A stretch of 64,000 nucleotides of DNA, taken from NCBI GenBank assembly GCA_028281535.1, contig JANQJS010000039.1:1-64000 (forward strand), written 5' to 3'. Numbering within the stretch: position 1 is the stretch's first letter; every line of letters starts with the position of its first letter. The notes beneath the pieces were generated by a model, which worked only from the letters and a program-made list of their open reading frames with translations, was not told where the DNA came from and did no database searches. This DNA is from Sedimentisphaerales bacterium (GTDB taxonomy: Bacteria > Planctomycetota > Phycisphaerae > Sedimentisphaerales > SM23-30). Below are positions 8,009 through 63,407 of this stretch, one piece after another. The position numbers and the translations under genes were made by a program.

Positions 8009-11000
8009 ATGGATTTCACCATAAAGACTCGCAGTTTTGCCTCTGTTGTCATATTGGGATGTCTCATCCTTTTATTAGGCTCTCCACGTCTATGCGCTAA
8101 GACACTTTATGTTAATACAAATATTGGTAATGATGATTGGACAGGGTCTGAGCCTCAGTTATTAGAAAATGGGGTTGCAGGACCTAAAGCGACCATTCAA
8201 GCAGCGGTCAATGTCGCTAACAGTAACGATGAAATAATCATTGCACCTGGTTTGTACAAAGGGCATGGAAACCGCGATATCAGTATTGAAAACAAGGTTC
8301 TTACGATTCGCTCTGAAAATGGATTAGGATCTGTAACCATTGATTGCGAGGGAACTAGTCAGGCGAGCCATCATGGATTCAATATATACAATGTCACAAG
8401 CCAGATGGTTCTTGAAGGGATTATCGTTATTAATGGTCGTGGTTTAAGAGGTGGTGGTGTCCATTGTATTAATAGCGATCTGAAGATTACTCATTGTATT
8501 TTTTCTGGCCATATCATGAATAGTGGTGGAGCCATTTATAGTAGTGGATCTGATGTTGTCATAGATCGATGTGGTATTTGGGGGAATCAAAGTTTGTATT
8601 CAGGGGGTGGCGTAGACAGTTGGTTCAGCAGGATAAAAATCAGTAATTCAGTGATTTGCGGAAATCGTGCATCTGATTATGGGGCTGGGGTTAGTAGCTC
8701 TGTAAATAGTGATGTAGAAATTGTAAATTGTACAATTAGCCAGAATGTCTCATCATTTTATGGCGGAGGTATCTTTGTTCGCCATGGCAGCACTATTGAG
8801 ATGGATCACTCAATATTATATAGCAATCGAGCTGAGTATGGCAATGAAATGGCATTAATAAATCGTTCAGGTAGACCCTCGTCAATTTCTGTTAAATATT
8901 CTGATGTCGAAGGGGGGCAAGAAAATGCGTACAGCGAAACAGGCACGGTTTTAGATTGGAAACTTGGAAATATTGATCAGGATCCATTATTTATTTCGCC
9001 TGGCTATTGGAATAATTCGGGGACTGAAGATAAAGAAGATGATCTATGGGTGGTTGGTAATATGCGATTGCAAGCGGAGTCGCCCTGCATTGATCTTGGG
9101 CATGCACTCTATCAACCAGAAATTCATATCAAGGATTTTAGTGGGTTTTCGCGTATGATCAATGGATGGGTTGATTTAGGTGCGCATGAATATCATTTGG
9201 AAGCTGATTGGGTGGTGGATGATGATGCAAGTTATGATCCAGGACCAGGTGATCCCGAAATCAGTTACGTTATAGAGGATGGTAGTATTAACTTTCCATT
9301 TGATACCCTGCAGGAGGCTATTGATATTGCACAACCTGGCGATCGGATATTAGTTCGCGATGGTATTTATACCGGGCCCGGCAATCGTGATTTGAAAATC
9401 ATTGAAAAGCCTTTAATGATATATTCTGAAAATAATGCGAAGCGATCCATTATAGATTGTGAGAATCTTGGACAGGGCTTTTTTGTGGATCAGTTAGGGG
9501 CGGAAGAACTATTAATTGATGGGTTAACTATTCGCAACGGATGGGCAAAACGAGGTGGTGCGATTTATAGTCGAAATTCATCGATTAATATACAAAATTG
9601 CCGTATTTTGAATAATCTTGCTATCTCCTGTGGAGGGGGAATTTATTGCGAAGGTGATAATCTTGAAAAAAGTTATCCATTGATTTTAAATAATGAAATT
9701 TCAGGGAATCGCTCTTACGGTCCTGGAGGCGGGCTTTATGTCTATTATTTCAATATCTATCCGAATATTATGAAGAATTTGGTTTCAGGAAATCACAGCC
9801 AGAAACGTGGGGGTGGTGTTTCTATTTTAGCTTTAAATAGTGATGCAACGATTATTAACAATACGATTACCAGTAACAAAGCGGATTCTGGTGGTGGTGT
9901 ATCATTCCATGCAAGTAATGATTCTGTGATGAAAAATTGTATCGTTTGGGGAAATCAGGCTGAGATTGGGGAAAATATTGAAATTCACCAGTTTGGGGAG
10001 CTATTTGCCAGCCAGGTTGCCATCGATTATTGTGATTTTGAGAATCTCGAAAGTAATGTACCTGTTTCAAATGATTCTGTTGTTGATTGGGGAAATAATA
10101 ATATTGCGAATGATCCCTGTTTTGTACAGCCTGGTTATTTCTTAGATAATGATACCCCCCAATTTGCTTTTGATGATATTTGGGTTCCAGGTAATTATCA
10201 GTTGAATTTTCGTTCAAATGCTATTGATAATGGAGATAATGGCCAATTTCTGGCTTCTGTTGTTGATCCTTTATCTGATAACCTCGTTTTTAATAATCGC
10301 ATTGACTTAGGTGCTTTTGAATATCAAGGGATTGATCCTGGTTTGTCTGCAAATCCACGAGAGATTGATTTGACAAAGGTTAGCGTGAAAGCAGGTAAAA
10401 AAGAAATTACGGATAGTTTTACTGTTGCAGGATTAATCGATACAACATTACAGGAAGTTGAGGTAGGTACAGATTTAACGATTCGTGTGGGGCCATTTGT
10501 AGAGACTTTAGCTTCAGAAAGTATCGACTGGAGCCGGACCGGCGATAAATTTAGTTATAAAGGTCGATCAAAAGAGGGTGTCAATTCGCTTAAGGTGGAT
10601 ATTAAAAAAGGTACCTTTCTGGTTTCAGCTAAAAATATCGATTTAACTGGATTGACAGAGCCTATGTTAGTGGAGTTTTCTTTTGGGAGTTACCGAGGTT
10701 TCGGTAGTGCTTTTGAAGATGTGATTAATGCAAAAAAAGTCGTGCCTATGTCTTTTGTGTCTGGTTTTTCAGATACATTGATTTTGAATTCTGTTGATTT
10801 AAAGAGCTCTCGCTCTCGAGGTGGAAGTAGGATGCCCGCCTGGACATTAAAGGGTGGAATTACGTTAGATGAATCGGTGGTCAACCTAAGGGATCATCTT
10901 GTCCATATTAAATGGGGAGATTTTGAGACGACCTTACAAGGTTGGATTATGAAAGATCATAAATCTGGGCAGCGTTTCCAATATAAAGGTAAAAAAACAG

Positions 11001-11176
11001 ATCAATTAGAGATAAAGACCCTGGAATTTGATTTTCAGAAGAATAGTTTTGAAATAGAAATCCATAAGAATATTATTCAATCATTCCCCATAGAGTTTCA
11101 GCTTACCTTAGAAGATCCTTTTGGTGGTGGTGTTTATTTTAATAAAACGCAACTTGTTGAATATCCATTAAAATAA
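8009..11176 (+). CDS. Secreted protein with two parallel beta-helix domains and two C-terminal modules
   Basis: A 1055-aa exported protein. A signal peptide (about 1-31, ending near LCAK) is followed by two right-handed parallel beta-helix domains at about 32-395 and 412-770. Each opens with the same elements: a strand, then ATIQAAVNVANSNDEIIIAPG or TLQEAIDIAQPGDRILVRDG, then GNRD, then repeated coils with GGG and N ladders such as SGGGVDSWFSRIKISNS. Each ends with SPCIDLG/NAIDNGD and DLGAHEY/DLGAFEY. Residues about 785-900 and 925-1055 are two copies of an unclassified module described among the findings. Such beta-helix domains usually bind or cleave polysaccharides; no lyase catalytic residues were identified. 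It is followed 88 bases later by a shorter paralogue, and no anchor or sorting tail is visible. Confidence 0.8.
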   Translation: MDFTIKTRSFASVVILGCLILLLGSPRLCAKTLYVNTNIGNDDWTGSEPQLLENGVAGPKATIQAAVNVANSNDEIIIAPGLYKGHGNRDISIENKVLTIRSENGLGSVTIDCEGTSQASHHGFNIYNVTSQMVLEGIIVINGRGLRGGGVHCINSDLKITHCIFSGHIMNSGGAIYSSGSDVVIDRCGIWGNQSLYSGGGVDSWFSRIKISNSVICGNRASDYGAGVSSSVNSDVEIVNCTISQNVSSFYGGGIFVRHGSTIEMDHSILYSNRAEYGNEMALINRSGRPSSISVKYSDVEGGQENAYSETGTVLDWKLGNIDQDPLFISPGYWNNSGTEDKEDDLWVVGNMRLQAESPCIDLGHALYQPEIHIKDFSGFSRMINGWVDLGAHEYHLEADWVVDDDASYDPGPGDPEISYVIEDGSINFPFDTLQEAIDIAQPGDRILVRDGIYTGPGNRDLKIIEKPLMIYSENNAKRSIIDCENLGQGFFVDQLGAEELLIDGLTIRNGWAKRGGAIYSRNSSINIQNCRILNNLAISCGGGIYCEGDNLEKSYPLILNNEISGNRSYGPGGGLYVYYFNIYPNIMKNLVSGNHSQKRGGGVSILALNSDATIINNTITSNKADSGGGVSFHASNDSVMKNCIVWGNQAEIGENIEIHQFGELFASQVAIDYCDFENLESNVPVSNDSVVDWGNNNIANDPCFVQPGYFLDNDTPQFAFDDIWVPGNYQLNFRSNAIDNGDNGQFLASVVDPLSDNLVFNNRIDLGAFEYQGIDPGLSANPREIDLTKVSVKAGKKEITDSFTVAGLIDTTLQEVEVGTDLTIRVGPFVETLASESIDWSRTGDKFSYKGRSKEGVNSLKVDIKKGTFLVSAKNIDLTGLTEPMLVEFSFGSYRGFGSAFEDVINAKKVVPMSFVSGFSDTLILNSVDLKSSRSRGGSRMPAWTLKGGITLDESVVNLRDHLVHIKWGDFETTLQGWIMKDHKSGQRFQYKGKKTDQLEIKTLEFDFQKNSFEIEIHKNIIQSFPIEFQLTLEDPFGGGVYFNKTQLVEYPLK

Positions 11177-11263
11177 GTGGCTTTCATTTGCAATTCGATT
11201 GATGAGATTCTACAATAACTCTTGAAATTGGCGTTTGTAAAATACAGGTCTGTTTGAGAAGCT

Positions 11264-13420
11264 ATGAGTATCCACCCTAAATTTATCCAAGTTTTGTCTG
11301 CTTTGGTATTGCTGTTGGGTTCTACGACTTTAGAGTCAAAAGAGATTCAGGTGCCATCACCTGGAATCACAGTCATTCAAGATGCCATTTTCCTGGCAGA
11401 TGCTGGCGATGTCATCATTTTAAGTGAGGGGATTTATACAGGGACCGACAATCGGGATTTGATTTTTTTTAATAAGGCGGTGACGGTCCGTAGCCAGGAC
11501 CCAAATGATCCTAATGTTGTACAAGCAACGATTATCGATTGCAATGGTTCTGAAGGTGATGAACATCGTGGGTTTATCTTTAATCAGGGGGAAACCAGTG
11601 ATTATGTCCTGGATGGTTTGACGATCAGTAATGGTTACCATAGTTCCGGTGGTGCTATTCAGTGTATCAATAGCAGTCCTACGATTAAAAATTGCCGCTT
11701 AATACAAAATACGACGACCGGATTTGGTGGTGGCATTTATTTAGAAAATAGTTCTAGTATCATTTCAAACTGCCATATTGTGTCAAATGTGGCTTTATCA
11801 CTTGATGGGAGTGGTCTGGCTAGCTTTAATAGTGACATTGAAATTAGCAATAGTATCATCAATAATAATCATGGGATGAGTGTCTTAGGCCGAGGCGGGG
11901 GGCTATATATTGAAACGAGTCAGCTAACCATTTCGGATAGTCAGATCAATGGTAATTCGTCAGGGTTTGGAGGGGGTTTTTATTTATTTGATGATAGTGA
12001 TGTTTTAATCGACCATTGCGAGGTTTCAGGTAATCTTGTGACCTCACATGGGGGAGGTGTTTATTGCCAAGATTCTGATGTTGATGTGATCAATAGCACC
12101 TTTCACTTAAATGAAGCTAGTGGGTTTGGGGGGAGTATTCGTTGTTTTACCAATGGTTTTGCAAATGTGCTTAATAGTATTTTCTGGGAAAATAATGCGA
12201 ATGATGGAAATAATTTTGCCTTAGTAGAGGGCGCCAACTTAACGGCGAATTATAGCAATTTCCTGTCAACGTCTAATGATATAAGTTTAGAAGTGGGCAG
12301 TCTATTTACGAATGGGCTGGGCAATACGCAATATGATCCCTTTTTTCAATCCAATGGCATGCGTAATTTAGGTACCTTGCCGGATGTCAGTGATGATGTT
12401 TGGATCGATGGCGATTATCAATTGCAATTTATTTCACCTTGTATTGATGCGGGCGACCCGCTGAGTCTTTTTTCTCAGGAACCGTCGCCAAATGGGGATA
12501 GAATCAATATGGGGGTTTTTGGAAATCGAGAAGGAGCTCAGGTTTCTTTAAGTAAAACGATTGTTTTGGATAAATCGAAAGTTAAACAGGGCAAATCGCG
12601 TAATGCTCAAGATCCTACTGATGCTTTATCGTTATCTGGTCAACTCTATGACTCTATCGGGCAGGCAGATATCAATGATATCGTTAATGCAAGTCAGGTC
12701 GTTGTTCGTTTAGTCACATTGGATGACTCTGATCTGGAGGTTAGTGAAATATTGGTGGATGCATTCGATGTGATTGTTGATCAAGATAAAGTGTTAAAGC
12801 GTCAAAAATATGATTATAAGCGTCCTAAAGATCAAGTTGGGGATGTTGAGAAGTTTGCCATTGATTACAAGAAGAATAGATTTTCAGTAGATTTTAAAAA
12901 TGTCGATTTAACAGGCTTGCAACTTCCTATTCAGCTAGAGATTCGGTTTGGGCAATATCTTGGGCGTACAATTTTTCGTTCTAGCCAGAATATCGGGTTG
13001 AAACAGCCCCTTCCGCTCTGTTTGCTATCTGGTGCATTTGATGCTATTGAAGTGTCTAAAGCGAAAGCGAAATCTGGCAAAAATGGTGACAGTTTAAGTC
13101 TTCAGGGAAATTTATCTGCTGCTATGACAGAAATTGATTTTACTACAGAGCAAGTTACGGTTCGCTGGGAAGGTATCGGAATATTTACAGAGACTCTCGA
13201 TATTGGTTCATTTACATCCAAAAAGAGCGGGGTGTTTTCTTATAAGAAGGCTAAAACAAGCAACGGGGATATAGATTCTATTTCGATCGATTTGAATAAA
13301 TGCAGTCTCAAGTTATCCATTAAAGATGCAATTTTATTGGATAAAACGGGTAGTGTCATATTTGAAATCACGACAAGCTCTGAGAATTTTTCGGCCTCTA
13401 CGACGGTTGAATTAGATTGA
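11264..13420 (+). CDS. Secreted single beta-helix paralogue with the same C-terminal modules
   Basis: A 718-aa exported protein, the shorter paralogue of the gene at 8009. Signal peptide at about 1-25, then one parallel beta-helix domain (about 28-420) opening with TVIQDAIFLADAGDVIILSEG and GTDNRD, with many coils of the type GGGLYIETSQLTISDSQ, and closing with SPCIDAGD. Residues about 430-575 and 590-718 carry two more copies of the unclassified module: DVDLTGL-like text appears as FKNVDLTGLQLPIQLEIRFGQY in the first copy in the sequence around 560. The start ATG has only a weak GAGAAG upstream. Probable function, as for its neighbour, is a cell-surface or matrix polysaccharide-binding protein; this is inference from the fold. 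It lies upstream of a polysaccharide export gene. Confidence 0.78.
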   Translation: MSIHPKFIQVLSALVLLLGSTTLESKEIQVPSPGITVIQDAIFLADAGDVIILSEGIYTGTDNRDLIFFNKAVTVRSQDPNDPNVVQATIIDCNGSEGDEHRGFIFNQGETSDYVLDGLTISNGYHSSGGAIQCINSSPTIKNCRLIQNTTTGFGGGIYLENSSSIISNCHIVSNVALSLDGSGLASFNSDIEISNSIINNNHGMSVLGRGGGLYIETSQLTISDSQINGNSSGFGGGFYLFDDSDVLIDHCEVSGNLVTSHGGGVYCQDSDVDVINSTFHLNEASGFGGSIRCFTNGFANVLNSIFWENNANDGNNFALVEGANLTANYSNFLSTSNDISLEVGSLFTNGLGNTQYDPFFQSNGMRNLGTLPDVSDDVWIDGDYQLQFISPCIDAGDPLSLFSQEPSPNGDRINMGVFGNREGAQVSLSKTIVLDKSKVKQGKSRNAQDPTDALSLSGQLYDSIGQADINDIVNASQVVVRLVTLDDSDLEVSEILVDAFDVIVDQDKVLKRQKYDYKRPKDQVGDVEKFAIDYKKNRFSVDFKNVDLTGLQLPIQLEIRFGQYLGRTIFRSSQNIGLKQPLPLCLLSGAFDAIEVSKAKAKSGKNGDSLSLQGNLSAAMTEIDFTTEQVTVRWEGIGIFTETLDIGSFTSKKSGVFSYKKAKTSNGDIDSISIDLNKCSLKLSIKDAILLDKTGSVIFEITTSSENFSASTTVELD

Positions 13421-23903: not shown

Positions 23904-25805
23904 TTAACTTAATGCTTCTTTTCTGACTAATATTTGATCCTGGTTTTTAGGTTCTGTTAGGATCAATTTATTTAGAAACTGAAATTCAAGTACGATAAAT
24001 AAGATGGCAAGCGGCATCATGGCGAAACCACCAAAATCATGAAACCATTTTTCCCAATCTGGCCCTTCTAGATAGGTAAACATGATTGCCGTTAATGTAA
24101 GCCTTATGGTATTACATAATAATGCGATAGGAATACATGAAAGCATACCTACAGCTTTATGCCAGAAAGGGCCTTTGTATATTAGAGTAACCAGTCCACA
24201 TACAACAAAAAATGCTGTGACCATACGTAGTCCATTGCAGGCTTCAGCAATGGCTACGCTGGTGTATTCTTCCTGCATATTGGATCGTAAATGGATAATA
24301 TTGCCCTGATTATTTACATCATAGCCGATCATTTCAAGTGTAAAGATGGACGATTCTGTTGCCCATGTTTGCAGTGGGGTTGTTATTGTTTTTTGGATGC
24401 TATTAGGAAGCGGGAGCATAAGAAATAAGAATAACATAATGGTTAATACTGTTTTAAATGCTTTCCAGCCCATGAACATCCAGAATAACACAATGATACT
24501 CAATACAAATGAGATGCGTTCCAATGATTGAAGCCATGTCCAGAGCCCATAAAAACGCAGGCCCTGCACTAATAGTAGCGCAAGACATCCCCATAGTAAA
24601 ATGGGTTTATATTGGTGCAATACGATTTGGTGGCGTCTTTTCCAAAAAACGACTCCAGCAATGATGGGCACCAAGGCGCCGCAAGCGTATTCATCATTAT
24701 CAAACCAGATATGGAAAAGGTCTTGTATTATTTTGGAGTATGAAAAGCTTACCGCAATAATTAAAAGTGTAAATCCGATCCATAGGTTTTTATGTAAAAC
24801 CATAGTTAAATTCTGTATGAGTGAAGGTCGTGGGCAAAGGATTGCTTTATCTTGTGCTAAAGTATTTACAGGTAATGTGACATTTTTGTCGATTAAACAA
24901 CGTTCTAAATGACAATTGTCCGAAATAATGGTATTGTCCCAGACGATACTGTGGTCTACGAGCGATTGTTGTTTAATCTGTGTTTTTTCATGAATAATAG
25001 CTGGGCCTAGTATTATGGCGTTTTCTTCAATGATGGCATTATTCATAATCACAGCTGGTCCAACGATTTTTGCATTGGGGTGCACCGTGGCGGAAGGATC
25101 TATCCAGACGTTTTCATTTGATTCAAGTGATTTTCTTTTCAAATAATCAGACATTGCGGCAAGGTAACTTTCTTTTTCACGAAAATTACCTAATGCATAG
25201 GGGAGTCGAACAATATCGATATGTTTGCCAGATCGAATTAATTCCGGAATCAGTGTTTCTTTGATATCGCAGTAGCCATCATTGGGAATGAAATCCATGA
25301 TATTAGGATTGCAAATATAAACACCGGCTGCTTCGCTGGAAGGTTTATATTCACTAACATTTGGATTGAGTGCCACTGTCATGGTTGAATGATGATGATT
25401 ATGCGGCTCTATTAATAATTGTATATCAACTTGGTTGACCATGCTTCCTTGAAAGATCACTAGTAAATCATTGGGGCGAATAGTTACCTGAGATTGTTCT
25501 ATTGCGTAGCGAATGCATCCAGCCGTTCCCATAGGTAATTTTTCCTCGAGGAATTCCAACTGCATACCATGATAATTTTTCAAGGATTCTTTTAGTGATG
25601 TTGGATCATCATAAGAGCATATAATGGCTTGCTTAAGACCCTGTTCCGACAGACTGTCTAATAAGCGGTGTAAAGCCGTTTTGTCTAATACTGGCCACAG
25701 TGTGGTCGGGAGATTAGAGGCGATAGGGCAGCGTCCAAAATCTTTCTTACCGATTAGGATAATGGCTATCATGTTTTGTGGATGATCTTTAAATTCTGAG
25801 TTCAT
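23904..25805 (-). CDS. Pseudo-nucleotidyltransferase/beta-helix/exosortase fusion
   Basis: A 633-aa protein with three parts. Residues 1-230 have the fold pattern of an NDP-sugar nucleotidyltransferase but appear inactive: the Gly-rich loop is LIGKKDFG (17-24) instead of LAGGxGTRL, the PKP motif reads PTT, and the metal-binding GD reads GS (120-121), while MGTAG (92-96) is retained. Residues about 232-310 are hexapeptide repeats of a left-handed beta-helix (VHPNAKIVGPAVIMNNAIIE). Residues about 335-620 are a polytopic exosortase, a transpeptidase-like sorting enzyme for C-terminal tails such as PEP-CTERM, with Cys523 in EACNGLR, Arg568 in CNTIRLT and His589 in FHDFGGF. The ATG overlaps the stop of rmlD (ATGA). 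Exosortases are normally only the membrane part. Confidence 0.9.
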   Translation of the reverse strand: MNSEFKDHPQNMIAIILIGKKDFGRCPIASNLPTTLWPVLDKTALHRLLDSLSEQGLKQAIICSYDDPTSLKESLKNYHGMQLEFLEEKLPMGTAGCIRYAIEQSQVTIRPNDLLVIFQGSMVNQVDIQLLIEPHNHHHSTMTVALNPNVSEYKPSSEAAGVYICNPNIMDFIPNDGYCDIKETLIPELIRSGKHIDIVRLPYALGNFREKESYLAAMSDYLKRKSLESNENVWIDPSATVHPNAKIVGPAVIMNNAIIEENAIILGPAIIHEKTQIKQQSLVDHSIVWDNTIISDNCHLERCLIDKNVTLPVNTLAQDKAILCPRPSLIQNLTMVLHKNLWIGFTLLIIAVSFSYSKIIQDLFHIWFDNDEYACGALVPIIAGVVFWKRRHQIVLHQYKPILLWGCLALLLVQGLRFYGLWTWLQSLERISFVLSIIVLFWMFMGWKAFKTVLTIMLFLFLMLPLPNSIQKTITTPLQTWATESSIFTLEMIGYDVNNQGNIIHLRSNMQEEYTSVAIAEACNGLRMVTAFFVVCGLVTLIYKGPFWHKAVGMLSCIPIALLCNTIRLTLTAIMFTYLEGPDWEKWFHDFGGFAMMPLAILFIVLEFQFLNKLILTEPKNQDQILVRKEALS

Positions 25806-39277: not shown

Positions 39278-42200
39278 TTAGGGTTGATAATCCAATACAA
39301 TAGTATTCGAGGTTAAACCCGTTTTTCCGGAACCATCGACGCAGGTAGCCATGATGTAATTAAAGCCATCATTGCTTCCTGAATTAGTTAACGTGATAGG
39401 GATGTCAACACTTCCACCAGCTCCGATCGTTGCAGAATATTCTCCAATTGCAACAGCTTTATTCGCTTCGAATGGATCTAAATCAAATCCACCGCCCGGT
39501 ACGCCTGCCACGTAGAGACCACACTCAAGTACCAGAACTCGAACATCGGTATTTGCTGGTCCTGTGATGTGTACTGTTTGGCTGGCGTTATTCACAGTGA
39601 CGGGTGTCACTGCCTGGCCAACAATTGAAATGGTAGGGCTAGGCAATGGATTGGAGACCACTGTGGTTTCAGACGCCAGCACGCTGGATGGCACCATAAA
39701 TAAATCATTCGTTAAGATCGTTGCATCATCAAATTCTAATGTGATGGAGCTTCCGGTTAGTTCCAAGCCATTAATACTTCCAGAATGCGATGGGCCTGGC
39801 GGCGAGGATCCTTGGATACTGGTTGGGTCGGTGTCGCTGGAAAATTTAATCGACTCGCCCGGGTCAAAATCATTAAATGTGATTTCGATGGTATCAAATC
39901 CATTGTCATGGAAATCAAGGAACTGATGGCCTAGCAGGCCAACGCCATCATCGCCATCAACATCGAAAGCTTTTGGGGTTCCTGTATCGCCTGCAATCGC
40001 ATTAGGGTCAAAAACAGAATCAGGAAGTATTGCACCACTCAGGTTTAATCGAGCTCTTACTATTTTCTGGCCACCTGTTGATGTATTGGTAATCATAAAT
40101 GTTTCCGGGTTGAATGTGCTGCTATCTTCCAATCGGATGGGACCGCCAGCTCGACTGGTATCTATGCTCATATATCCTTCGGCACCATTTCCAGGTGTTG
40201 TTTGGAAGAGATATCGAAAAGCTTCGGTAAATGTGTTTTGCCCTGCATTGGTTGTAACTTGAACATCGACGAGACTCGTAGTTGGAAAAGCGTTTGCTGG
40301 AATGATTCCACGAATACGAGTAGGGCTAACTGATGTCAGAGTCGCTGGAAGGCCTCCGATCGTGACAGACGTTGTCGCCAGGGTTTCAAACCCAACACCT
40401 GAAATTACAAACTGGGCACCACCTGTAGCAGGAGCTCGCCATGGGAAGATGTCAAATACTTTCAGTCCCACAGCACTAATGTCATTAGGGATCGCTGCAA
40501 TAACATAGTCTTGCGAATAATCAATACCAATCAATGCTCCGCCAGGCCCGGTCAATAAGTCGAGCGAATCGATTTCATTAAATAAGAGAGCATAGGAATT
40601 CGTTACCGTCAAATGATCTTCGGATAATTCAAGACGATAGGTTTGCGCATTCCATTTTTGTACCAATAGATCACCACGCATTTGGCTATCAAAGGCAGCA
40701 GATCGATATTCATCGATACCATTGATCGATGATGGAAATGTCACAATGGCAGCGTTGATAATACCTGGGAACGATGAATTTGCGGTATAATAAACATTTT
40801 GTCGTGGATCTGTTCGACCCCGATTACGGTTTGGATGGCCATAATAATTACCTTGAATAATCCGATCTACCGAATCGATATCTTCTTCGCCTGGTGTGAG
40901 TGTTTGCGTGTCTGGGCCTGTTGATGCGGCACCATACCCAGCACCAGAATCATTATCGGTTGTGTAGATATCTCCCCAAGTTGTATAGACCAGATCAAAT
41001 GAATTTCGAACACCAGGAGCAAAAACTTCAACATCAATTCCGGGTGCTATATCAACGGTTTCACCAAAGACCTGGTCATTATTAGGAAGACCATTTGGAT
41101 CCAGATAAGTAATTGTGCCATTGAAATTCTCACGGCTAACATAAGCGATGACAACGGCGGCACTCAGCGGTGTTTCTGGCAGACCACCAAGTTCACAGCT
41201 TACAACACCTGCATTTGTATTACCACCGACACAGAAGAGCATGTCTCCATCATTATTAAATTCAATACTTGCTACGCCATGATCATGATTTGAAACCGGC
41301 AGGCCGGTGATCAGTGGCTCATAAGTGTCAAAGTTGGGGCCGGTTAATACAGATATTTGGCCATTATAAGGCATGACTTGTCCTTGTGGTAATCCAATGC
41401 AATTCTCATGAGCTGCGTCAAATACTTCGACAGCAAATAATTGGGTATGTGCTACATAGATTTTTACCGGGCCAGTCACTTCATATGGATTAAAGCCAAT
41501 CCCTGTCACTTCATGATTTGATAATCCTGTTAACGTCGTGATCGTTTGTGTATTAGTTAGATTATAATCATCATCAAATGTATATGCTTCGATAATACCA
41601 TCACGTGTGCCGACATATAATCGACCGTCTGGGCCCCAGGCACCTTGAGTGACATTGTCAATGTTACTTGCCAACGTTTTGAAATTAAACAGAATGGGTG
41701 GAGGCCCACCTAGTATATATGTGTAAGGAACACTATTGCTGACGCCATTCGGCGTTTCGACGGTAACGTTAATTGTTCCAGTGCCAGGTGGTGTAAGAAA
41801 ATTGATGCCTGTAGGGGAAACAGTTAGGCTTGGACCCGTTAAGTCCTCAGCTCCCCAATGTACAGTAACTTGATCTGATGGGAAAAAGCCCAGGCCTGTA
41901 ATAGTTGTTGGTATTCCTCCGGTATCAGATCCTTCTGTAGGTAACGAGTTGATGACCGGAATCATATTCGACTCATCATGCGTAATAATAGAAGAATCTA
42001 TAGGAACTGTAAAGCCGGTACCAATTGCATACTCGATGCTAATAGGCAGCTCTGTATTTGAAAGAACCGCAAATCGAGCATCAAGGGTATGTCGTCCAGG
42101 ATTTAAAAAGATGGATGATGATGTTTGCAGTCCATTAACGAGCAAGAGAGAATCGGCACCGCCTGTCAGAGTAAATGTATAATCATTGGCCTGTGTAATG

Positions 42201-45200
42201 TCTATCTGTGCGACGATACGCACCAAAACATCAGAGACAAAATTGGAACTACCGATCGTTCCAAGAGGATTTTCTAAAACTAATGTTGGAATACGTTCTA
42301 CAAAATCTGATTGAGCCGGTACTGGATCAAGTTGATAGGTTGGTGATTGTACCAGGTCATCATAGTAGAAGACAAAAGCACCAGGGACACAATTAGGGTC
42401 AACCACAGAAAATGTACTTGAAAGCGGTAATGATTCTGGTGGAATATTATCATCAAAAATCGTGAGTGAAACCGTATGCTCGCCAGTCGCAAAGTTTGTT
42501 GTGACATTTGGCGTGGTAGCGAACAATATGCCCTGTTCTCGCCATTCAAAATTGGTTAGATCGTGACCGAATTCATGAGTATGCGATTCGTCACCTTGGA
42601 GATAAACTGTTTCCATGCCATCTAAATCATAATCGACAAAGAATGGATCATGGCTAATCACGGTATGTAAGAATGGGTGGCTTGGGGCTTCCCCGGTACC
42701 TGCTCCAAGTAGCTGGATGCTTTGTGGCTCAAAGTTACCTGAAAACTGCAAGGTGACATCATTTTCTGAAACCTCTGTTGGTAAAAATTGTACCGGTAAA
42801 ATCTGTGATTGACCGGGTGGGATGGTTACATTCGTTGGCATTGTCGTATTGCTATGACCACCAACAAAAGTCTGGCCACCAATGGTTAAGGCAAAATCAT
42901 GTCCAACCCCAGCATTAAGAATCGAACTGACCTGTGAAACATTGATAGGTGTGATTCCAGTGTTTGTTAAGGTAATTTGTTTGACATCGCCTGGTTGATC
43001 AACAAGAACATGGCCCCAGTTGTGTAAAGCAGGGCTGACATTTAAAACACCTGCATCGCCCGGATACTTTAAGACTTCAATGGCAGATATTTTGGGGTTG
43101 TCTGCGTTTGGCACATGTAAGAATTGAATATTAAGAGCGCCGGTGACATTCATCTCAAATTGACGAATGTGAGCATGTTCAAAACCGGCAACGGCAAAAA
43201 TATCATAATCATCTAGTATGAGATTGCCTTCAATTTCTACATCAAACAATCGAGCGCCAATCGATGCTTGAAATGGTGATATTTCAGCAAAATGAAGAAG
43301 GATACGATAAAGTCCATCTTCTGGGATTGGAATATTATATGACATTTCAACACCGGCAGGATGGTCATAGCGTTCCGTTTGATATAGCAGATCCATGCTC
43401 GTTCCAGAAATTGGATTTGTACTCGGTGTCGCCACGCGTCCACCATTATAATAGGTGTCAGCAATCCAAAGGTTGCCATTTGGATCTGTATAATCAGAAC
43501 CTCCACAATTAATACGAGCTACTACTTCAAATAAAGGGGTGGGTGTTGGGTCAATCGCGATACCTGAAAGCGGTACATGAATATGTTGGTTATGGTTATC
43601 AAAGTGTAGTTTAAGATCTGTACTTCGTATGCCTTCAAAGAGTGGCGTAAATTGAACTTGAAGATCTACCATTTCACCTGGGTTGAGTGTTATGGGTAAG
43701 TTGGGCTCATTGATGAGTGCAAAATCAGTAGAGCTGCCCCCAATGAGTTCGGCCATCATAAATTCATGGAAAATAGAATCATTGTTTTTTAAGGTCACGG
43801 TAGCTACGGTGCTTTGACTGCCTACGAGCGTATCTGAAAATGTGACGCTGGTAGGATTGACTTGCAGGTCATTGACTGGAGTGCTAACGCCTTGGCCAGT
43901 TAATGCAACATGAACATGGATCGCATGATTGTCAAAGTGAAGTTTAAGATCACCATTTAACGTTCCTTCAAGTTCAGGTTGGAAAGCAACCGAAATTTGG
44001 GTAGATTGATTTGGGTCCAGGTTAATGGGTAAATTAGGTTCCTGGATGACGGAAAAACTATTAGGATCAATTCCTGTCATTTCAATCATAAATAAATTAT
44101 GTGGCACCACGTCAAAGTTTCTTAATGTGACGGTCACCGGTGGACAATTTTGCCCAACCAAGGTATTTGCAAAATGTATATTTTTTGGGTTCGTTTGAAG
44201 ATTAGGTTGCCCCGTCGATATGCCGTTACCCGTTAAATCAATCGTTGGTTGGAACGCTGAACTATCAAAATTCAGTTGTACTTGTGCTTGATGCGCTTTG
44301 GATGACAGTGGCGTGAATGTTACATTAAAGCTCGTGTTCTCGCCGGGATTTAATGTCAATGGAAGTAACGGTAAACCTAATGTTGAAAAACAACAATTAT
44401 CTGTTCCTATGATTGAAACGCTATCAAAGGTATGTGGCAGACTGTCATTGTTCGTGATCGTAATTGTTGTGAATGCAGAGGTCACTCCCAGCAGTGTATC
44501 ATCGAATGAAATGGCACTTGGGGTAATCTCAATGTTTTGCGTGCCTTGGGGTAAAGAGCTGCCGCTAAGAATAACAGCTTGGGATCCCGCAGGATCATCA
44601 GACAGTATTTCAAGGCTGCCACTTAACGTGCCAGGAGATTGTGGCGTAAATGTTGCATCAAAATTTGCGTTACCGCCAGTCGGGGCCAGAACAATACCAT
44701 TTGGATCTGGTAAAATAATGATATCCGAAGCCAGTGTTCCAGTTAAATTAAAACTATCGAGCGTGATAGGATCAGGACCATTATTAGTAACGATAAAATT
44801 AATTGGACCTGCTGAATTATACTGCACAAGTGAACCGAAATTAAGTGCAGCAGGATTCACAGATAAACTCGATTGTTGACCAAACACCTGGTCGACTTCG
44901 ATGCCATTGATTTTTGGATTTTCTATACCATGGATGAACTCAATATCCAATGAAGAGTCATTTACTGTGACAATGAATTCTTTAATTTGTGCCGTTAAGA
45001 ATCCAACTTCGTTGAAAATATCGTAATTGGTCAGAACTGGTAAGCCTTCAATATTCACATCAAAAACACGTTGGCCTGCTCCAGTTATACCGGTATAGAG
45101 TTCTGCAAAGTGAAGTCGAACTCGATATTGCCCAGATGAAACAGGAAAGCTGTAAATTAATTCTGATCCGTTTGATGGATCCCATCGTTCCTTTTTATAG

Positions 45201-45946
45201 ATGGGGTCATCAACCGTACCTGCAATTGCTTGTGGAGTAGAGCCTGTAAAACCGGTATTAAAGTTTGAATCGGTAGCCCAGAGGTTACCTTGTGAATCCG
45301 TAAAAGGATTATTGAATTCTCCACAATTGATTCTAAAGAGATTAACAAATGCTGGTTGGTTACCCGTTCCAGATAAAGGTATGATCACATCCCCAAAAGA
45401 GTTGTCAGATTGGATAACGATTTGAGAAGAAAAGACACCTGCTTGGGTTGGTGTAAAACTTGCATTAAATGTAAACGTAGCATTTGGATCAGATGGGATA
45501 ACCGCAGGTAACCCGCCATGTGTGACCGAAAAAGCATTAGGGTCATTCCCCGATAGAAGAATATTTGAAATCGTTAATTGAGTAAGACCCACATTGGTCA
45601 AGGTCACTAATGAATCAGCACTGGATTGGCCGACCTCGATGGTGCCAAAATCAATATTTGCCACATCGGCTATAAGCTGACCTGCAAGGTTCGTACAATT
45701 GTTTCCTGCAGGATCGGTACATTCAAGCCATTGGGATGCAAACGTAATGATTTCGGTAACACTGTTCGGTTCAAACGAAGCAAAGTCAAGGATATTGACC
45801 TGGCAATCCTGGTTTAGATCACTTTCGAAATACCCGAAATCGCCACACGTTTGGCCGTGAACGTTTGCGATTGGCAGAATATTCACTGCCAATAAAAGGA
45901 GGATCGAATAAATGTACGTAATTGATAATAGTGACTTCTTCTTCAT
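39278..45946 (-). CDS. Giant secreted protein with dockerin-like, malectin, choice-of-anchor-D, IPT and propeller domains
   Basis: A 2222-aa exported protein with a signal peptide (1-32, ending NVHGQ). Order, from sequence patterns: a dockerin-like segment at 33-84 (DLNQDCQVNILDF, an EF-hand loop, then FASQWLECTDP); a choice-of-anchor-D (SPD-2/Hydin-type) repeat at about 90-200; a malectin carbohydrate-binding domain at about 200-352 (INCGEFNNP ... VRLHFAELY); four more SPD-2-type repeats at about 355-800 (VNPTSVTFSDTLVG pattern); a second malectin at about 808-960; another SPD-2-type repeat to 1085; a PKD-like region; a PA14-like region at about 1190-1310; IPT/TIG domains at about 1320-1415 and 1825-1920; and a beta-propeller-like region between them (GAWGPDGRLYVGTRDGIIEA). 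Probably binds surface or matrix glycans. No sorting tail at its C-terminus (IVLDYQP). Confidence 0.82.
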   Translation of the reverse strand: MKKKSLLSITYIYSILLLLAVNILPIANVHGQTCGDFGYFESDLNQDCQVNILDFASFEPNSVTEIITFASQWLECTDPAGNNCTNLAGQLIADVANIDFGTIEVGQSSADSLVTLTNVGLTQLTISNILLSGNDPNAFSVTHGGLPAVIPSDPNATFTFNASFTPTQAGVFSSQIVIQSDNSFGDVIIPLSGTGNQPAFVNLFRINCGEFNNPFTDSQGNLWATDSNFNTGFTGSTPQAIAGTVDDPIYKKERWDPSNGSELIYSFPVSSGQYRVRLHFAELYTGITGAGQRVFDVNIEGLPVLTNYDIFNEVGFLTAQIKEFIVTVNDSSLDIEFIHGIENPKINGIEVDQVFGQQSSLSVNPAALNFGSLVQYNSAGPINFIVTNNGPDPITLDSFNLTGTLASDIIILPDPNGIVLAPTGGNANFDATFTPQSPGTLSGSLEILSDDPAGSQAVILSGSSLPQGTQNIEITPSAISFDDTLLGVTSAFTTITITNNDSLPHTFDSVSIIGTDNCCFSTLGLPLLPLTLNPGENTSFNVTFTPLSSKAHQAQVQLNFDSSAFQPTIDLTGNGISTGQPNLQTNPKNIHFANTLVGQNCPPVTVTLRNFDVVPHNLFMIEMTGIDPNSFSVIQEPNLPINLDPNQSTQISVAFQPELEGTLNGDLKLHFDNHAIHVHVALTGQGVSTPVNDLQVNPTSVTFSDTLVGSQSTVATVTLKNNDSIFHEFMMAELIGGSSTDFALINEPNLPITLNPGEMVDLQVQFTPLFEGIRSTDLKLHFDNHNQHIHVPLSGIAIDPTPTPLFEVVARINCGGSDYTDPNGNLWIADTYYNGGRVATPSTNPISGTSMDLLYQTERYDHPAGVEMSYNIPIPEDGLYRILLHFAEISPFQASIGARLFDVEIEGNLILDDYDIFAVAGFEHAHIRQFEMNVTGALNIQFLHVPNADNPKISAIEVLKYPGDAGVLNVSPALHNWGHVLVDQPGDVKQITLTNTGITPINVSQVSSILNAGVGHDFALTIGGQTFVGGHSNTTMPTNVTIPPGQSQILPVQFLPTEVSENDVTLQFSGNFEPQSIQLLGAGTGEAPSHPFLHTVISHDPFFVDYDLDGMETVYLQGDESHTHEFGHDLTNFEWREQGILFATTPNVTTNFATGEHTVSLTIFDDNIPPESLPLSSTFSVVDPNCVPGAFVFYYDDLVQSPTYQLDPVPAQSDFVERIPTLVLENPLGTIGSSNFVSDVLVRIVAQIDITQANDYTFTLTGGADSLLLVNGLQTSSSIFLNPGRHTLDARFAVLSNTELPISIEYAIGTGFTVPIDSSIITHDESNMIPVINSLPTEGSDTGGIPTTITGLGFFPSDQVTVHWGAEDLTGPSLTVSPTGINFLTPPGTGTINVTVETPNGVSNSVPYTYILGGPPPILFNFKTLASNIDNVTQGAWGPDGRLYVGTRDGIIEAYTFDDDYNLTNTQTITTLTGLSNHEVTGIGFNPYEVTGPVKIYVAHTQLFAVEVFDAAHENCIGLPQGQVMPYNGQISVLTGPNFDTYEPLITGLPVSNHDHGVASIEFNNDGDMLFCVGGNTNAGVVSCELGGLPETPLSAAVVIAYVSRENFNGTITYLDPNGLPNNDQVFGETVDIAPGIDVEVFAPGVRNSFDLVYTTWGDIYTTDNDSGAGYGAASTGPDTQTLTPGEEDIDSVDRIIQGNYYGHPNRNRGRTDPRQNVYYTANSSFPGIINAAIVTFPSSINGIDEYRSAAFDSQMRGDLLVQKWNAQTYRLELSEDHLTVTNSYALLFNEIDSLDLLTGPGGALIGIDYSQDYVIAAIPNDISAVGLKVFDIFPWRAPATGGAQFVISGVGFETLATTSVTIGGLPATLTSVSPTRIRGIIPANAFPTTSLVDVQVTTNAGQNTFTEAFRYLFQTTPGNGAEGYMSIDTSRAGGPIRLEDSSTFNPETFMITNTSTGGQKIVRARLNLSGAILPDSVFDPNAIAGDTGTPKAFDVDGDDGVGLLGHQFLDFHDNGFDTIEITFNDFDPGESIKFSSDTDPTSIQGSSPPGPSHSGSINGLELTGSSITLEFDDATILTNDLFMVPSSVLASETTVVSNPLPSPTISIVGQAVTPVTVNNASQTVHITGPANTDVRVLVLECGLYVAGVPGGGFDLDPFEANKAVAIGEYSATIGAGGSVDIPITLTNSGSNDGFNYIMATCVDGSGKTGLTSNTIVLDYQP

Positions 45947-47806: not shown

Positions 47807-50800
47807 ATGAGACGACATCATGGTCAAATCATTAGAAAACCTAATTCAATGAGATTGCAGCATCGATTTGTAAGCATGTTTGTCTTTATGGCTTCACTAA
47901 TGATTAGTCATAATATATATGCCGCAACGCAAGTATCTCAACATGGGATTACCTGGACTTTCTCAACAAATGCTCAAGTGGGGCAATTTATTAATGGCGA
48001 CTGGTATGTTATCGGACCTGTGACGGTCACCTCTGTCTCTCCTTCTCCTACATCTAGCAAACATGGATCTGTGGTTAACCCGCAAGCTGTTTATCCGGCA
48101 GTGCAAGGTTATGATTCACAAGTCCGAGCGTTTGATGCAAGTGTAAGAGTGAATTATCCATTAAATTTGAATCCAGGAGATTCACTGGTTTCATCAGTGA
48201 GTTGGGATGTTAATCAAAGCCGTACAGATTTAATTGGTTTAAATGTGACCGCTTCGAATCATAATTTAAAGACAGTTGCGGTTCTTACTTGTTTGGGACA
48301 AACTCCACCAGTTGATGCTTTTCGTCCGCCATATGCTGGAACGAATAAGCCACTCTATAGAAAAAGTCAGATTCAATATGACAAATTGCCTCGAGTAACA
48401 CCTCCTCAAAAACAAACCAATCCAAACTATAATTATGATGATGTCCAAGCAGGGCTCAAAGGTAGAGATTTCAATAAGACTGTCGCAACGCAATTTGCTA
48501 GATACTTTGAGCGTCCCTGGATTTTACACGTGGACGACTGGCAAGGTAGATCCTCTCATCCAACCGAAAATATGCCAAATTATCACGTGAATGTTTATGA
48601 AATTATATCTGAAGCTGCTGTTTTATTGACAACCGACCTTCCGGATATTGATAATCTATTAATACCTTATATTCAGTTGGGGATTGATAGTCATTATATT
48701 ACCTTAAGCGGTACAAGCAGTGCCGATAGTTCTATTCATAAATGGCCCATCCTTTTTGCAGGGATTATGCTTAATGATTCGGCGATGAAATCCAATAGCT
48801 ATACGTTTCGTACTGATTGGATGACCTATTTCGTTCAAGATCGCGAAAGTACTAATTCAAGCGGCATTGTTCCTTCGACGCAAGGTTGGACCGGGTCTCC
48901 AGCGTTGTTCAGACAAGATCCTGGAAATATGGAGCATGAGCACTTGCACCCATCCGAATGGGATATCGTTCCTAATGGTGGTGGGATCAAGCGGGAAAAA
49001 TATAGACGATTAAATACGCCCACTTGGCCCGGGGTTGCTCTGGCGGCCAAGTTGACCAGTGGAGGGCAAGAAGCTTGGGATCATCCAGCCTTTTTTGCCT
49101 ACGTAGATCGTTGGATGACAGAACCTGATGCCAGCAATAAAACCTACCTGGAAAATACATTTAATGGTGGGGCTTCCATTGGTTCCGGTGGAGGATGGAC
49201 CAGATCTTCTTTTATTACAGCTATGTATGAGGCCTATAGTGGTGTAACGCCTCCTCCGCCACCTGGTGAAGATACTGTTGCACCTAATGCACCAACGAAT
49301 TTAACAAGCTCATCACAAACATCTACTTCAATTCAATTAAATTGGTCGGCACCATCAGCGGCGTCTGATGGTGATACAGCCGTTTCTTATGCTGTGCATC
49401 GCAATGGAACCTTTTTGACGCAAGTTGTTTCTACAAATTATACGAATAGTGGTTTAACCCAAAACACGAGTTATAGTTTTGAAATATATAGTATCGATGA
49501 TGCAGGAAATTCAAGTACTTCAGCAGCAACAGGAACCTACTCTACTGAAGCTGGTGGAGGCGATCCGCCACCACCGCCGCCAAGTGGATTTACCAGTAAT
49601 TCATCATCATGGATGAATCAAAGTATTGCATCACAAACGGATACATTTCAATTTGAATTTGATGCGACTCCTTTGGGCAGCAATATAGATGGTGTAACGG
49701 GGCTTTCAGATATTATTCCTGACAGTTATAGTGATTTAGGTGTCACTGTACGATTTAATATAAATGGAATGATTGATGCTCGTCACGGCAGTATTTATAC
49801 CGCACAGTCGTCTGTTCCATATCAATCGGGAACAACTTATCATTTCAGACTAGTGATTAATATACCCAACCATACCTATGATATTTATGTGACGCCAGCA
49901 GGGTCATCAGAACAAACGATTGGTACAGGGTATGCCTTCCGCAATGGCCAGGAAACCACTTCAATATTGTCACAAATTGGTCTTGCGCCAGGCGGGCCAC
50001 ATACTGTTGCAAATATTGTTGCATCGCCCATTGGTGGTCCTGTGGATACCAATGATCCACCCGTCATCAATTCAATTAGCTCGCAATCAGCTACTGAAAC
50101 TGTTGCTATAAGCTTTAATGTCTCAGCGACTGATCCAGATGGAGATTCACTAACCTATTCAGCAAGTGGTTTGCCAACAGGTGCCTCTTTTTCTGGACAA
50201 ACATTTAACTGGGTGCCTCAAATTGGCCAAGCGGGAAATTATACCGTAAATGTAACGGCAAGTGATGGTCAGTTGCAGGACACGGAGTCTGTGACGATTA
50301 ATGTCGCACCTAAGCCAACATCTGGTCCAACGGTGGTGTCATTAACATTATATAATGCCGATACCAATTCTCCGATTAGTGGTTTTAATCCCATGCCGAC
50401 GAATGCGGAGATTAATTTAACGGAATTGCCAACTCAAAATTTAAACATTGTTGCCAGCACGTCACCAGCGATTGTTGGTTCTGTTAGGTTCAGTTATGAT
50501 GGTAACAATACATATCATATCGAAAATGCCGCACCTTATGCCTTGGCAGGAGATGTTCAAGGGAATTTCAGCCCATGGACACCTTCATTGGGTCAGCATA
50601 CGTTGACCGTGACAGGTTACAGTGCTTCAAATACGGGCGGTGATGCCGGTAATCCATATACCATTTCTTTTAATGTAACCAATACCACAAGCGGTACGAA
50701 TAATCGTGCTCCTGAGTTGTCCCCGATCGGAGATCGCTCAATTGGTGAAAATCAAAGTTTGGTTGTTGGTATCAACGGCAGTGATCCAGATGGTGATTCG

Positions 50801-53800
50801 ATGAATTACTGGACCTCGACATTGCCTCCAGGTGCTGCTTTTGCCAACCAGGCTTTTACGTGGATGCCTACATATGATCAGGCTGGCGTTCATTCAATAA
50901 CGTTTTATGTTAGTGATGGTAGTTTGTTAGATTCAGAAACGATTGACATTACAGTGACCAATATCAACCGTCCACCTATTTGGAATAGTTTGCCCAATCA
51001 ACAAGTTGCAGAGGCTCAGTTGTTAACTTTTAGTGTTTCTGCTACTGATCCTGATGGTGATACGATTAATTATTCGGTAGAAAATTTACCTGCGGGTGCC
51101 ACATTTGTGAATCAAACATTTAGCTGGACTCCCGGTAATAATGCTTCTGCAACGAATTTGGTTACGTTTATTGCTGATGATGGTGAAGATGAAGATTACT
51201 TGCCTATTAATATTACCGTTGCCCAATCGAATCAACCTCCTGTGTTAGAACCAATTGGAAATAAAGTTGTTAATGAAAATGAAGCGGTGGGTATTACCTT
51301 GATTGCGACGGATGGTGACAATGATGATTTAAGTTATCATATTGGTGAGTTACCTGAAGGCGCTGTATTTGAAGGTAATGTTTTTACCTGGATTCCAAAT
51401 TATGATCAAGCTGGAGAATATGAAATTGGATTTGGTGTTTTTGATGGTCAGGTCTTTGATACTGAACAAATTACCTTGACGGTTAATAATACAAATAGAA
51501 GTCCTGTTATGAGTGAGATCGATAATATTTCTTCATTAGAGCAGGATGCCATTTCTATAACGGTTAATGTGGTAGATGATGATGGTGATGAGTTAAGCTA
51601 TTCTGCTGAAGGCTTAAACTTTTTGCCAGGGGCTCTTTTTGAAAATAATGAATTTACCTGGACACCAGATTATGATGCCGCGGGGGTATACCAAGTTACT
51701 TTTAGTGTGACCGATGGTAGTTTGTCAGATAGTCAAGCAGTTACTTTAACGATAGCTAATCTAAACCGGCCACCCGTTTTTGAAGATGTTTCAAATCAGC
51801 AAATTGGAGTTGACCAGCCCTTTACCTTATCCCTTTCTGCGACAGATCCCGATGATGATCCTATCGTTTACACGGCAGAAGGATTGCCATCTGGAGCACA
51901 ACTAATCGGTAATCAATTTAGTTGGACGCCTCAAGCAGGTGATGTTGGTAATCATCCAATTCAATTTATTGCAGGTGATGGTGTTGATGAAGAGAAAATG
52001 TTAGTGACAATATCTGTGGAAAATGGCAACATTGCCCCGGTATTTGAGCCGATTTCCTCTCCAGTTATTAATGAAAATGAAACAATCAACTTTAGTGTCA
52101 TGGCGATAGATGCCGATGTTGTGACTTACTCAGTACAGAATTTGCCAGCAGGTGCTAGTTTTGTGGATCAGATATTTTCCTGGTCACCTGACTATGATGC
52201 CGCTGGAACGTACTCTGTCACCTTTGTTGCCAGTGATGGTGAGTTTGACACACTGTTTCCTGTAACGATTACGGTTAATAATACCAATCGTGCACCAGAA
52301 TTTACGCCTGTTAACAATCAATTTGTTGATCAGTTTTCAACCTTGACTTTGCCGCTGACAGCGATAGATCCAGATGGTGACCCGGTTGAATTGACCATGG
52401 AAACGATTCCCTCAGGGGCAAGTTTTAATTCTGGACTATTTACCTGGACGCCAGGAGAAGATCAAAATGGTCAAACGAAATTAACCGTTAAAGCCAGTGA
52501 TGGTGAGCTGGAGTCACAAACGACATTTGACGTTTATGTACTTGCGGTTAACCTTGATACCATTGCACCTGCAGTAAGCCATGTTTCTCCAGAAAATGGT
52601 GATATACAGGTGCCACTTAATAGTCTGGTAGTGGTTGATATAGCTGATTCTGGTAATGGTGTTGATAGTGATTCTGTGATCATTCGATTAGATGGTCAGA
52701 CCATTTATCAGGGAGGGGCTGAGACCTATACCAGTGAATTGGGTAAGACGCGTCGTGCTGGAAGCTCTGTGTTGTATAAATATACTTTTCAACCCTCAAT
52801 TGTTTTTGACAATGATCAAACTCTCACATTAACGGTTGAAGCAAAAGATCAATCTAATAATGCCATGGAAACGTTCGAATCATCTTTTGTTTCTGAAATG
52901 CAGACCTTTGGCAATATTTCTGCGGTGCATGCTATTGATGATGCCAGCCTGCAATCTCAACCGGAAACGGCGCATGATGGTCAAGGTTCTCAATGGTTTG
53001 TCTGGGCGACTGGTGATGAAGGTTCACGAAATATCTCTGTTACGCGTTCGGTCGATGGTGCTATTCAAAATGTGGTTGGGGTTGCAAATAATGCTAATGA
53101 CCAACTCAATCCTGATATTGCGATCGATGCCTCTGGTAGAGTAATAGTCTGTTGGCAGGAGAATATTTCTGGTAGATGGGCTGTATTTACCTCAAGTTCT
53201 ACTGATGGCCTAAGTTGGTCCACTCCTAAAATAATTCGAGAATCAGAAAATGATCAAGTCAATCCTGTTATCGCTTCGAACTCAATCTTAAATAGCAATT
53301 TTGCAGTAGCCTATCAGGAAAAAAATAGTGGCGTAGAGCAGATTCATGTTATTAGAACCACTGACGGTTTTACGACAATGACTCATGACGTTGTCACAAG
53401 TAACCCACAGCAGCATGTAGATCCTACCATCGCATTTACTAATAATGTGATCTATCTTGCCTGGACGGATTTGAGACATTCAACTGCAGCGATTTATGGT
53501 GCAAACTCATCCGATGGTTGGGTCAATAGAGCTCTTGTTAATTTACCCAGCAATCAATCAGAACCCGACCTGGTTGTTACAACTAATACGAACACTATGT
53601 ACCTTGTTTGGACCGATGATCGCTTTGGTCATCAGGATGTCTTCTATGGCGTATCTTCTAATGGATTTTCTGATGTACCATTACAAGGTGTTAATGTCGT
53701 TGACGATACCACACAGAGAGATCAACATTCTGCTAAAATAACATGCTATGAAGATGGTAATAATACAGATGTTTTCACCTGCTGGCAGGATTCGAGAAAT

Positions 53801-54923: not shown

Positions 54924-55769
54924 ATGCGGTTGGCCAAAATGAATATAAGAAAAACGTTGATAACGAGTAATGTCTTGCTGTTGGCAATATTTATCATTGT
55001 CGTAGCTAAGATCGTACCTTGGGCTCTATCTAGCACACAAGGCCCGGGGCCAGCCAAAGTGAATGCACACCTGATGCCACGCGATGATATTTCTAAAGAA
55101 TCACCTAATCCCACAATCGATTACTCAACACTGGCTGATAGTAATTTGTTTACAGAATTTTCGCAAACATTGGTATCTAAGCCTGCGGTAATTTCCATGC
55201 CAAAACACCTTAAACTCATTGGGACGGTAGTTGGGCATAAGGATGTATCGAGGGCTATTATCAAAAATACTGAATCTAAATCAGTTAAATTTTACAAGAT
55301 CGATGAAACCGTGGAAGGTGCCGTCGTAACAAGCATTGATCGAGACGTGATCTTGTTGACAAAAAATGGACAACAATTCGAATTAGGCATGACTCAGGAT
55401 CGAGATCATGAGAACAAAACCTCATCTGAAATATCAGAAAAAAAGATGATTCCTATTCCTATTCAAACACCAAGAAAGATATCGATTCAACAAGCCAGTG
55501 GTATGCAATCTATTTTTCGGATAGCAAACTTGTCACCTGTGGAAGTTGATGGTACTAACCAGGGGTTGAAAATTACCGGGATACAATCCTTTCCACTTGC
55601 CAAAGAATTAGGTCTGAAAGAAAACGATGTGATTCAATCGATTAATGGTCACATGCTTAGTAGCAAACGACAAGGGTTTCAAGTGTTACAAAAAGCCAAA
55701 ACACAACCCGTTATTGAAATGAAACTTATTAGAGATGGCAAAAATAAAAACTTTACGATTCGCCAATAG
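54924..55769 (+). CDS. gspC: T2SS inner-membrane protein GspC
   Basis: A 281-aa protein with one N-terminal membrane helix (about 14-36, SNVLLLAIFIIVVAKIVPWAL), a periplasmic HR-type domain (about 90-155, with LKLIGTVVGHKDVSRAIIKN and VKFYKIDETVEGAVVTSID), and a C-terminal PDZ domain (about 205-281, GLKITGIQSFPLAKELGLKE and NDVIQSINGHML). GspC connects the inner-membrane platform with the secretin. The order GspC then GspD is normal. Two possible starts (Met1 and Met6) lie close together and neither has a clear ribosome-binding site; I keep the first. Ten bases precede gspD. Confidence 0.88.
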   Translation: MRLAKMNIRKTLITSNVLLLAIFIIVVAKIVPWALSSTQGPGPAKVNAHLMPRDDISKESPNPTIDYSTLADSNLFTEFSQTLVSKPAVISMPKHLKLIGTVVGHKDVSRAIIKNTESKSVKFYKIDETVEGAVVTSIDRDVILLTKNGQQFELGMTQDRDHENKTSSEISEKKMIPIPIQTPRKISIQQASGMQSIFRIANLSPVEVDGTNQGLKITGIQSFPLAKELGLKENDVIQSINGHMLSSKRQGFQVLQKAKTQPVIEMKLIRDGKNKNFTIRQ

Positions 55770-55778
55770 TAGACAATT

Positions 55779-58022: not shown

Positions 58023-58045
58023 TTACAAATAGGATAGCATAATAA

Positions 58046-60929: not shown

Positions 60930-60940
60930 TTGGAGGAGTT

Positions 60941-61761: not shown

Positions 61762-61762
61762 G

Positions 61763-63389: not shown

Positions 63390-63407
63390 ACTAAAGGTTC
63401 TCATATA

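Follow-up and report, generated by a model that had tools for sequence, protein, structure and literature searches.

Two adjacent genes of a Sedimentisphaerales bacterium encode proteins that each close with two copies, c1 and c2, of a module that, judged by our searches, is an uncatalogued sequence family, absent from the libraries and the literature consulted. The c1–c2 pair lies where bacteria carry the tags that settle the destination of secreted proteins and is probably a new type among them. Our computations define the family, its fixed c1–c2 order, a single old duplication, its C-terminal position, the unrelated passengers (N-terminal parts) to which it is joined, the alternative tails that paralogues carry in the same slot and a confidently predicted all-beta fold.

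A module pair at the end of two adjacent genes

The two genes lie in the window, the 64,000-nucleotide stretch of DNA that was analysed, and encode proteins 1 and 2 (Table 1). As the original prediction had described by eye, both proteins end with two module copies: all six pairwise local alignments among the four copies beat 1000 of 1000 shuffles (z 7.1–15.3), and the motifs that had been quoted are found in the sequences. The module is real, but its measured length is about 127–150 amino acids rather than the ~120 first proposed. The N-terminal parts of both proteins are likely beta-helices by sequence, with only weak Chlam_PMP, DUF1565 and NosD-like profile matches in the Pfam and NCBIfam scans. 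In the NCBIfam scan, the choice-of-anchor Q model NF041518 scores 39.4 bits in protein 1 against a cut-off of 25; two stretches of the protein exceed this cut-off, and Table 1 gives the coordinates of the better one. We take the name of this domain to imply that varying anchors follow it. The c2 copy of protein 1 is the most divergent c2 in the genome, that of the leucine-rich repeat protein L021 excepted. Proteins 1 and 2 are encoded directly upstream of an exopolysaccharide and exosortase region (window positions 13717–47082) with genes for a polysaccharide export protein, a PrsT-like TPR protein, a sugar transferase, a tyrosine-kinase-like protein, glycosyltransferases and an EpsI-like protein.

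Table 1 Coordinates of the two genes and their features in the window
Feature	Window positions	Strand	Protein residues	Remarks
Protein 1 (1055 aa)	8009–11176	+		Hydrophobic, signal-peptide-like N-terminus, two beta-helix-like stretches, C-terminal c1–c2 pair
Choice-of-anchor Q domain (NF041518), protein 1	9059–9193	+	351–395	Closes the first beta-helix stretch
Module copy c1, protein 1	10340–10720	+	778–904	From profile places and tree
c1–c2 connector, protein 1	10721–10753	+		Conserved connector with proline before c2
Module copy c2, protein 1	10754–11167	+	916–1053	Ends 2 aa short of the protein end
Protein 2 (718 aa)	11264–13420	+		Hydrophobic, signal-peptide-like N-terminus, one beta-helix-like stretch, c1–c2 pair
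Module copy c1, protein 2	12536–12985	+	425–574	From profile places and tree
c1–c2 connector, protein 2	12986–13021	+		Conserved connector; includes KQPLPLC
Module copy c2, protein 2	13022–13417	+	587–718	Reaches the last residue; predicted 10-strand all-beta domain

The earlier statement that the module belongs to no named domain held in every library searched by sequence, with single copies or with pairs. No Pfam model covers the module region in the full proteins or in 31 single copies (E ≤ 1), no NCBIfam model covers it in the full proteins or in 15 pairs, and PDB chains searched by sequence contain no match to it. Literature searches likewise returned no description of such a domain.

Two unequal halves and a predicted all-beta fold

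The two copies in each protein are not equivalent repeats; they are the two distinct halves of one unit. When the copies of 38 proteins belonging to two families are placed in one tree, the 38 c1 and the 38 c2 sequences separate exactly into two clades, with support of 100 and 98. The split requires one label change, compared with about 25 in shuffles, and was recovered in 200 of the 200 bootstrap trees examined, in a tree built from few columns and with many unresolved inner forks. On the simplest reading of this clade split, one old duplication would have produced a two-domain unit, with the pair then inherited as a block. The connector is conserved as well, with a proline just ahead of c2 in 37 of 38 pairs. 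First copies share, among other positions, a D, a G and the L-x-G-L element of KN-D-L-TGL, and second copies share an invariant G, a W-G and a D-x-x-K-C. The KN(I/V)DLTGL motif had correctly been noted in two of the four copies; both are the first copy of their pair, because the motif belongs to the first copies, which form their own clade.

Most conserved positions hold small, hydrophobic or turn residues, with no universally kept catalytic-like set. A cysteine in the PLC form of the connector, as at window positions 12986–13417, occurs only where the KC-turn cysteine of c2 also exists (10 of 10), and in the genome 10 pairs have both cysteines and 5 have neither. This pattern hints at a possible disulfide in c2 between the two, the rows being related and the comparison hence confounded. 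Lysine makes up about 8% of c2 and about 2% of the passengers; the net charge of the module is near neutral, and we make no argument for a basic patch.

AlphaFold2 models, computed with alignments of window and named-relative sequences only, reached a pLDDT of 74.7 for the pair and, for a single second copy, a pLDDT of 86.9 and a pTM of 0.82, with a 10-strand all-beta domain. Foldseek comparison of a single module with the PDB yielded nothing beyond Ig-like sandwiches of a generic kind (best E-value 0.0018, TM-score about 0.4), and the whole pair found only loose antibody matches (TM 0.2–0.3), probably driven by its two-sandwich architecture; a fold search of a viral structure library with the whole pair gave no better match. 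The module is thus predicted to fold, probably, as a beta-sandwich. Its resemblance to Ig-like domains in Foldseek is remote and general, with no family-level match and no E-value below 0.001, and no closer structural relative is visible to Foldseek in the PDB. The last element of the pair is predicted to be a beta-strand, and a terminal hydrophobic helix is lacking.

Passengers, distribution and other C-terminal tails

The module recurs elsewhere in the window genome (4.44 Mb in 67 contigs), where a search with a profile of the copies located 32 places in 17 proteins. A close pair is present in 15 of these, ending 0–10 residues before the stop codon in 14. Across the genome and its relatives, the distance from the end of the pair to the stop is at most 4 amino acids in 34 of 40 close pairs and at most 15 in 38 of them. 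There are exceptions to these rules: the FecR-type protein L019 (2904–4328, minus strand) bears a single c1-type copy and falls outside the pair rule, L021 continues for 348 amino acids after its pair, the distant L082 continues for 215, and the pair of L096 is divergent.

The N-terminal parts of the 15 pair proteins, all from one genome, fall into 10 groups without mutual BLAST similarity (E 1e-5), and they include glucose/sorbosone dehydrogenase, cyclophilin, lamin-tail/CotH/LamG, GLUG with CHRD, TIG and leucine-rich repeat proteins. Beta-helices are one of these ten unrelated groups, and a domain limited to beta-helix proteins is rejected on this passenger diversity. Most passenger proteins have signal-peptide-like N-termini. 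In L071, a GH3 glycosidase of a relative, solved GH3 homologues match to about residue 703–708 and the pair occupies residues 746–1021; because the GH3 homology stops before it, the pair is here an added tail. The window also encodes two very large predicted exported proteins that lack the pair (39278–45946, minus strand, and 47807–54538, plus strand; 2222 and 2243 amino acids); malectin, Cep192/HYDIN-like Ig and TIG domains occur in one of them and tandem-95 repeats in the other.

Within the family of the window genome the module is present in 13 of 13 genomes. Elsewhere in the order it has a patchy distribution: genus g240 (family f7) carries it in 4 of 4 genomes, genus g21 (family f6) in three genomes and not in a fourth, and g239 gives one weak match. 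The pair profile matched no further genome in a 298-genome sample of the class. The single-copy profile matched 20 genomes of a 294-genome phylum sample; beyond the order these matches were for the most part weak and limited to one or two copies per genome. A scan of named genomes gave no match with copies from the window genome as query and six named loci with the copies of relatives; the named relatives that carry the module are metagenome-assembled genomes of Sedimentisphaerales and Phycisphaerae. One protein of phylum-mate G162 (L078:1196–2014, minus strand) combines several CxxCH haem-binding-like motifs with a single c2-type copy at its end.

The place occupied by the pair is filled differently in other proteins of the same cell. 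The genome encodes many further proteins with similarity to the beta-helix region of protein 2. Among 16 such paralogues without the pair, inspected by eye, 14 close with a short tail that resembles a dockerin and has the pattern GDxNxDGxxNxxDxxxxxxxWL, and 2 stop right after the beta-helix. Pfam finds Dockerin_1 in seven of eight such tails (seven of the eight from the window genome), two of them above the curated cut-off. A regular expression for these tails proved unfit, missing clear cases and firing on two ends that are not dockerin-like. Dockerin type I-like tails and the pair share the C-terminal slot on homologous beta-helix passengers in one genome; the former are short EF-hand-like repeats with no sequence relation to the module. 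Genome-wide there are 30 Dockerin_1 matches and no Pfam cohesin. PEP-CTERM is matched at 36 places and exosortase at three, including one in the window. No pair overlaps any of the PEP-CTERM places, little overlap being expected at such numbers anyway. The genome has at least three types of C-terminal tail on probably exported proteins.

Neither of the two machineries tested across genomes of the order, exosortase and the type II secretin GspD, co-varies with the module: both occur in nearly all genomes, with or without it, and co-occurrence with such near-universal components is uninformative. In the window, type II secretion is represented at 54924–63998 (plus strand) by GspC, by GspD (above the NCBIfam cut-off) and, by appearance, by GspE, GspF and pseudopilin-like proteins. 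The N-terminal half of the window exosortase (23904–25805, minus strand) is a sugar nucleotidyltransferase with hexapeptide repeats. Exosortase matches lie in open frames of 636–691 amino acids in 17 of 31 genomes of the order, and the nucleotidyltransferase–exosortase fusion, its N-terminal half examined in the window protein only, is probably conserved there.

Possible roles of the pair

The original prediction had proposed attachment, binding or a role in secretion on the ground that the module follows beta-helices. That link was wrong, yet the class of function is the best supported, indirectly, by the C-terminal position, by diverse passengers with signal-peptide-like N-termini and by the dockerin-like tails of paralogues in the same slot. 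We favour, at about an even chance, c1–c2 as an attachment or sorting unit, most likely for non-covalent retention at the cell surface. The reasons are its place at the very C-terminus, the lack of relation among its passengers, its presence behind a complete enzyme, its inheritance as a block and the alternative tails in the same slot. Passengers would leave the cytoplasm, probably via Sec, and the folded pair would then most likely hold them on or near the cell surface by binding non-covalently to an envelope polymer or protein; we infer export, surface location and the non-covalent mode alike. Against attachment stand the single c1 on L019, a protein expected by its family in the inner membrane, the long extensions after the pairs of L021 and L082, and the lack of co-variation with exosortase or GspD. 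Plain ligand-binding domains that do not serve as anchors are, moreover, found at the C-terminus of many enzymes and adhesins.

Among known systems, PEP-CTERM tails were recognised by the same kind of argument as is used here for the pair (PMC1569441). Like the pair, the PEP-CTERM/exosortase system, which is present in the window genome, involves a C-terminal homology region on unrelated exported proteins. PEP-CTERM tails are about 25 residues long, with a PEP motif, a membrane helix and a basic end, whereas the pair consists of two folded domains of about 130 amino acids with neither the motif nor the end helix. Type IX secretion CTDs of Bacteroidota, beta-sandwiches of about 80–100 amino acids or more, form the very C-terminal end of secreted proteins that are otherwise unrelated. 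The pair has this position on unrelated passengers, but it always comprises two non-equivalent domains and occurs in a different phylum, and type IX CTD families gave no match in Pfam for 31 copies or in NCBIfam for 15 pairs (E ≤ 1).

Its strict position, unrelated passengers and inheritance in one block would also suit a recognition domain for outer-membrane export, analogous to a type IX CTD and served by a dedicated secretion apparatus, and the patchy distribution in the order is what a system open to gain or loss would show. We consider this quite unlikely, given the missing CTD family match, the absence of a co-varying apparatus among the two tested, the internal pairs of L021 and L082, and the single c1 of L019, whose expected inner-membrane location hints that at least the first half serves for binding and not as a signal for export. 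The predicted all-beta, sandwich-like domain and the enzymes or adhesin-like proteins among the passengers would instead fit an ordinary ligand-binding tail, for example a carbohydrate-binding one, directed to an external substrate and not to the bacterium's own cell; a role in binding is likewise suggested by the dockerin-like tails that take the same slot. Such a tail is unlikely but deserves some weight, as cyclophilin, FecR, GLUG or leucine-rich repeat passengers have no obvious common external substrate and binding modules are usually not restricted to the last residues of a chain.

A structural cap or folding aid for long extracellular proteins, acting without a specific partner, would account for the lack of a universal catalytic-like set, for the mostly small, hydrophobic and turn character of the conserved residues and for the long repeat proteins among the passengers. 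It has a slim chance in our estimate, since complete compact enzymes such as GH3 carry the pair without needing a cap, and a generic cap would not require c1 and c2 to stay distinct and in fixed order. The 30 Dockerin_1 matches in a genome without a Pfam cohesin might point to the pair as an unrecognised cohesin substitute that receives the dockerin-like tails of the same cell; cohesins resemble the module in size and all-beta make-up, and among 11 genomes of the order they occur only in two that lack it. That split involves two genomes only, and the profile comparison makes the idea highly improbable: hhalign gave a probability of 0.1% against cohesins of the order, and PF00963 matched 0 of 31 copies (E ≤ 1), which rejects the module as a divergent cohesin. 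More speculatively, and with a probability we put quite low, c1–c2 might be the signal of an undescribed surface-sorting or export pathway of the order, operating beside exosortase and the dockerin-like tails, with different jobs for c1 and c2 such as recognition and retention.

The c1–c2 attachment or sorting unit that we favour is a variant among known C-terminal sorting and attachment domains, unusual in its tandem of two non-equivalent domains and in the presence of two other tail types in one genome. How proteins are placed on the unusual planctomycete cell surface is poorly known. The pair offers a profile with which a set of probably exported proteins of this order can be searched for, shows three C-terminal tail types side by side in one genome, and renders the question of protein placement testable.
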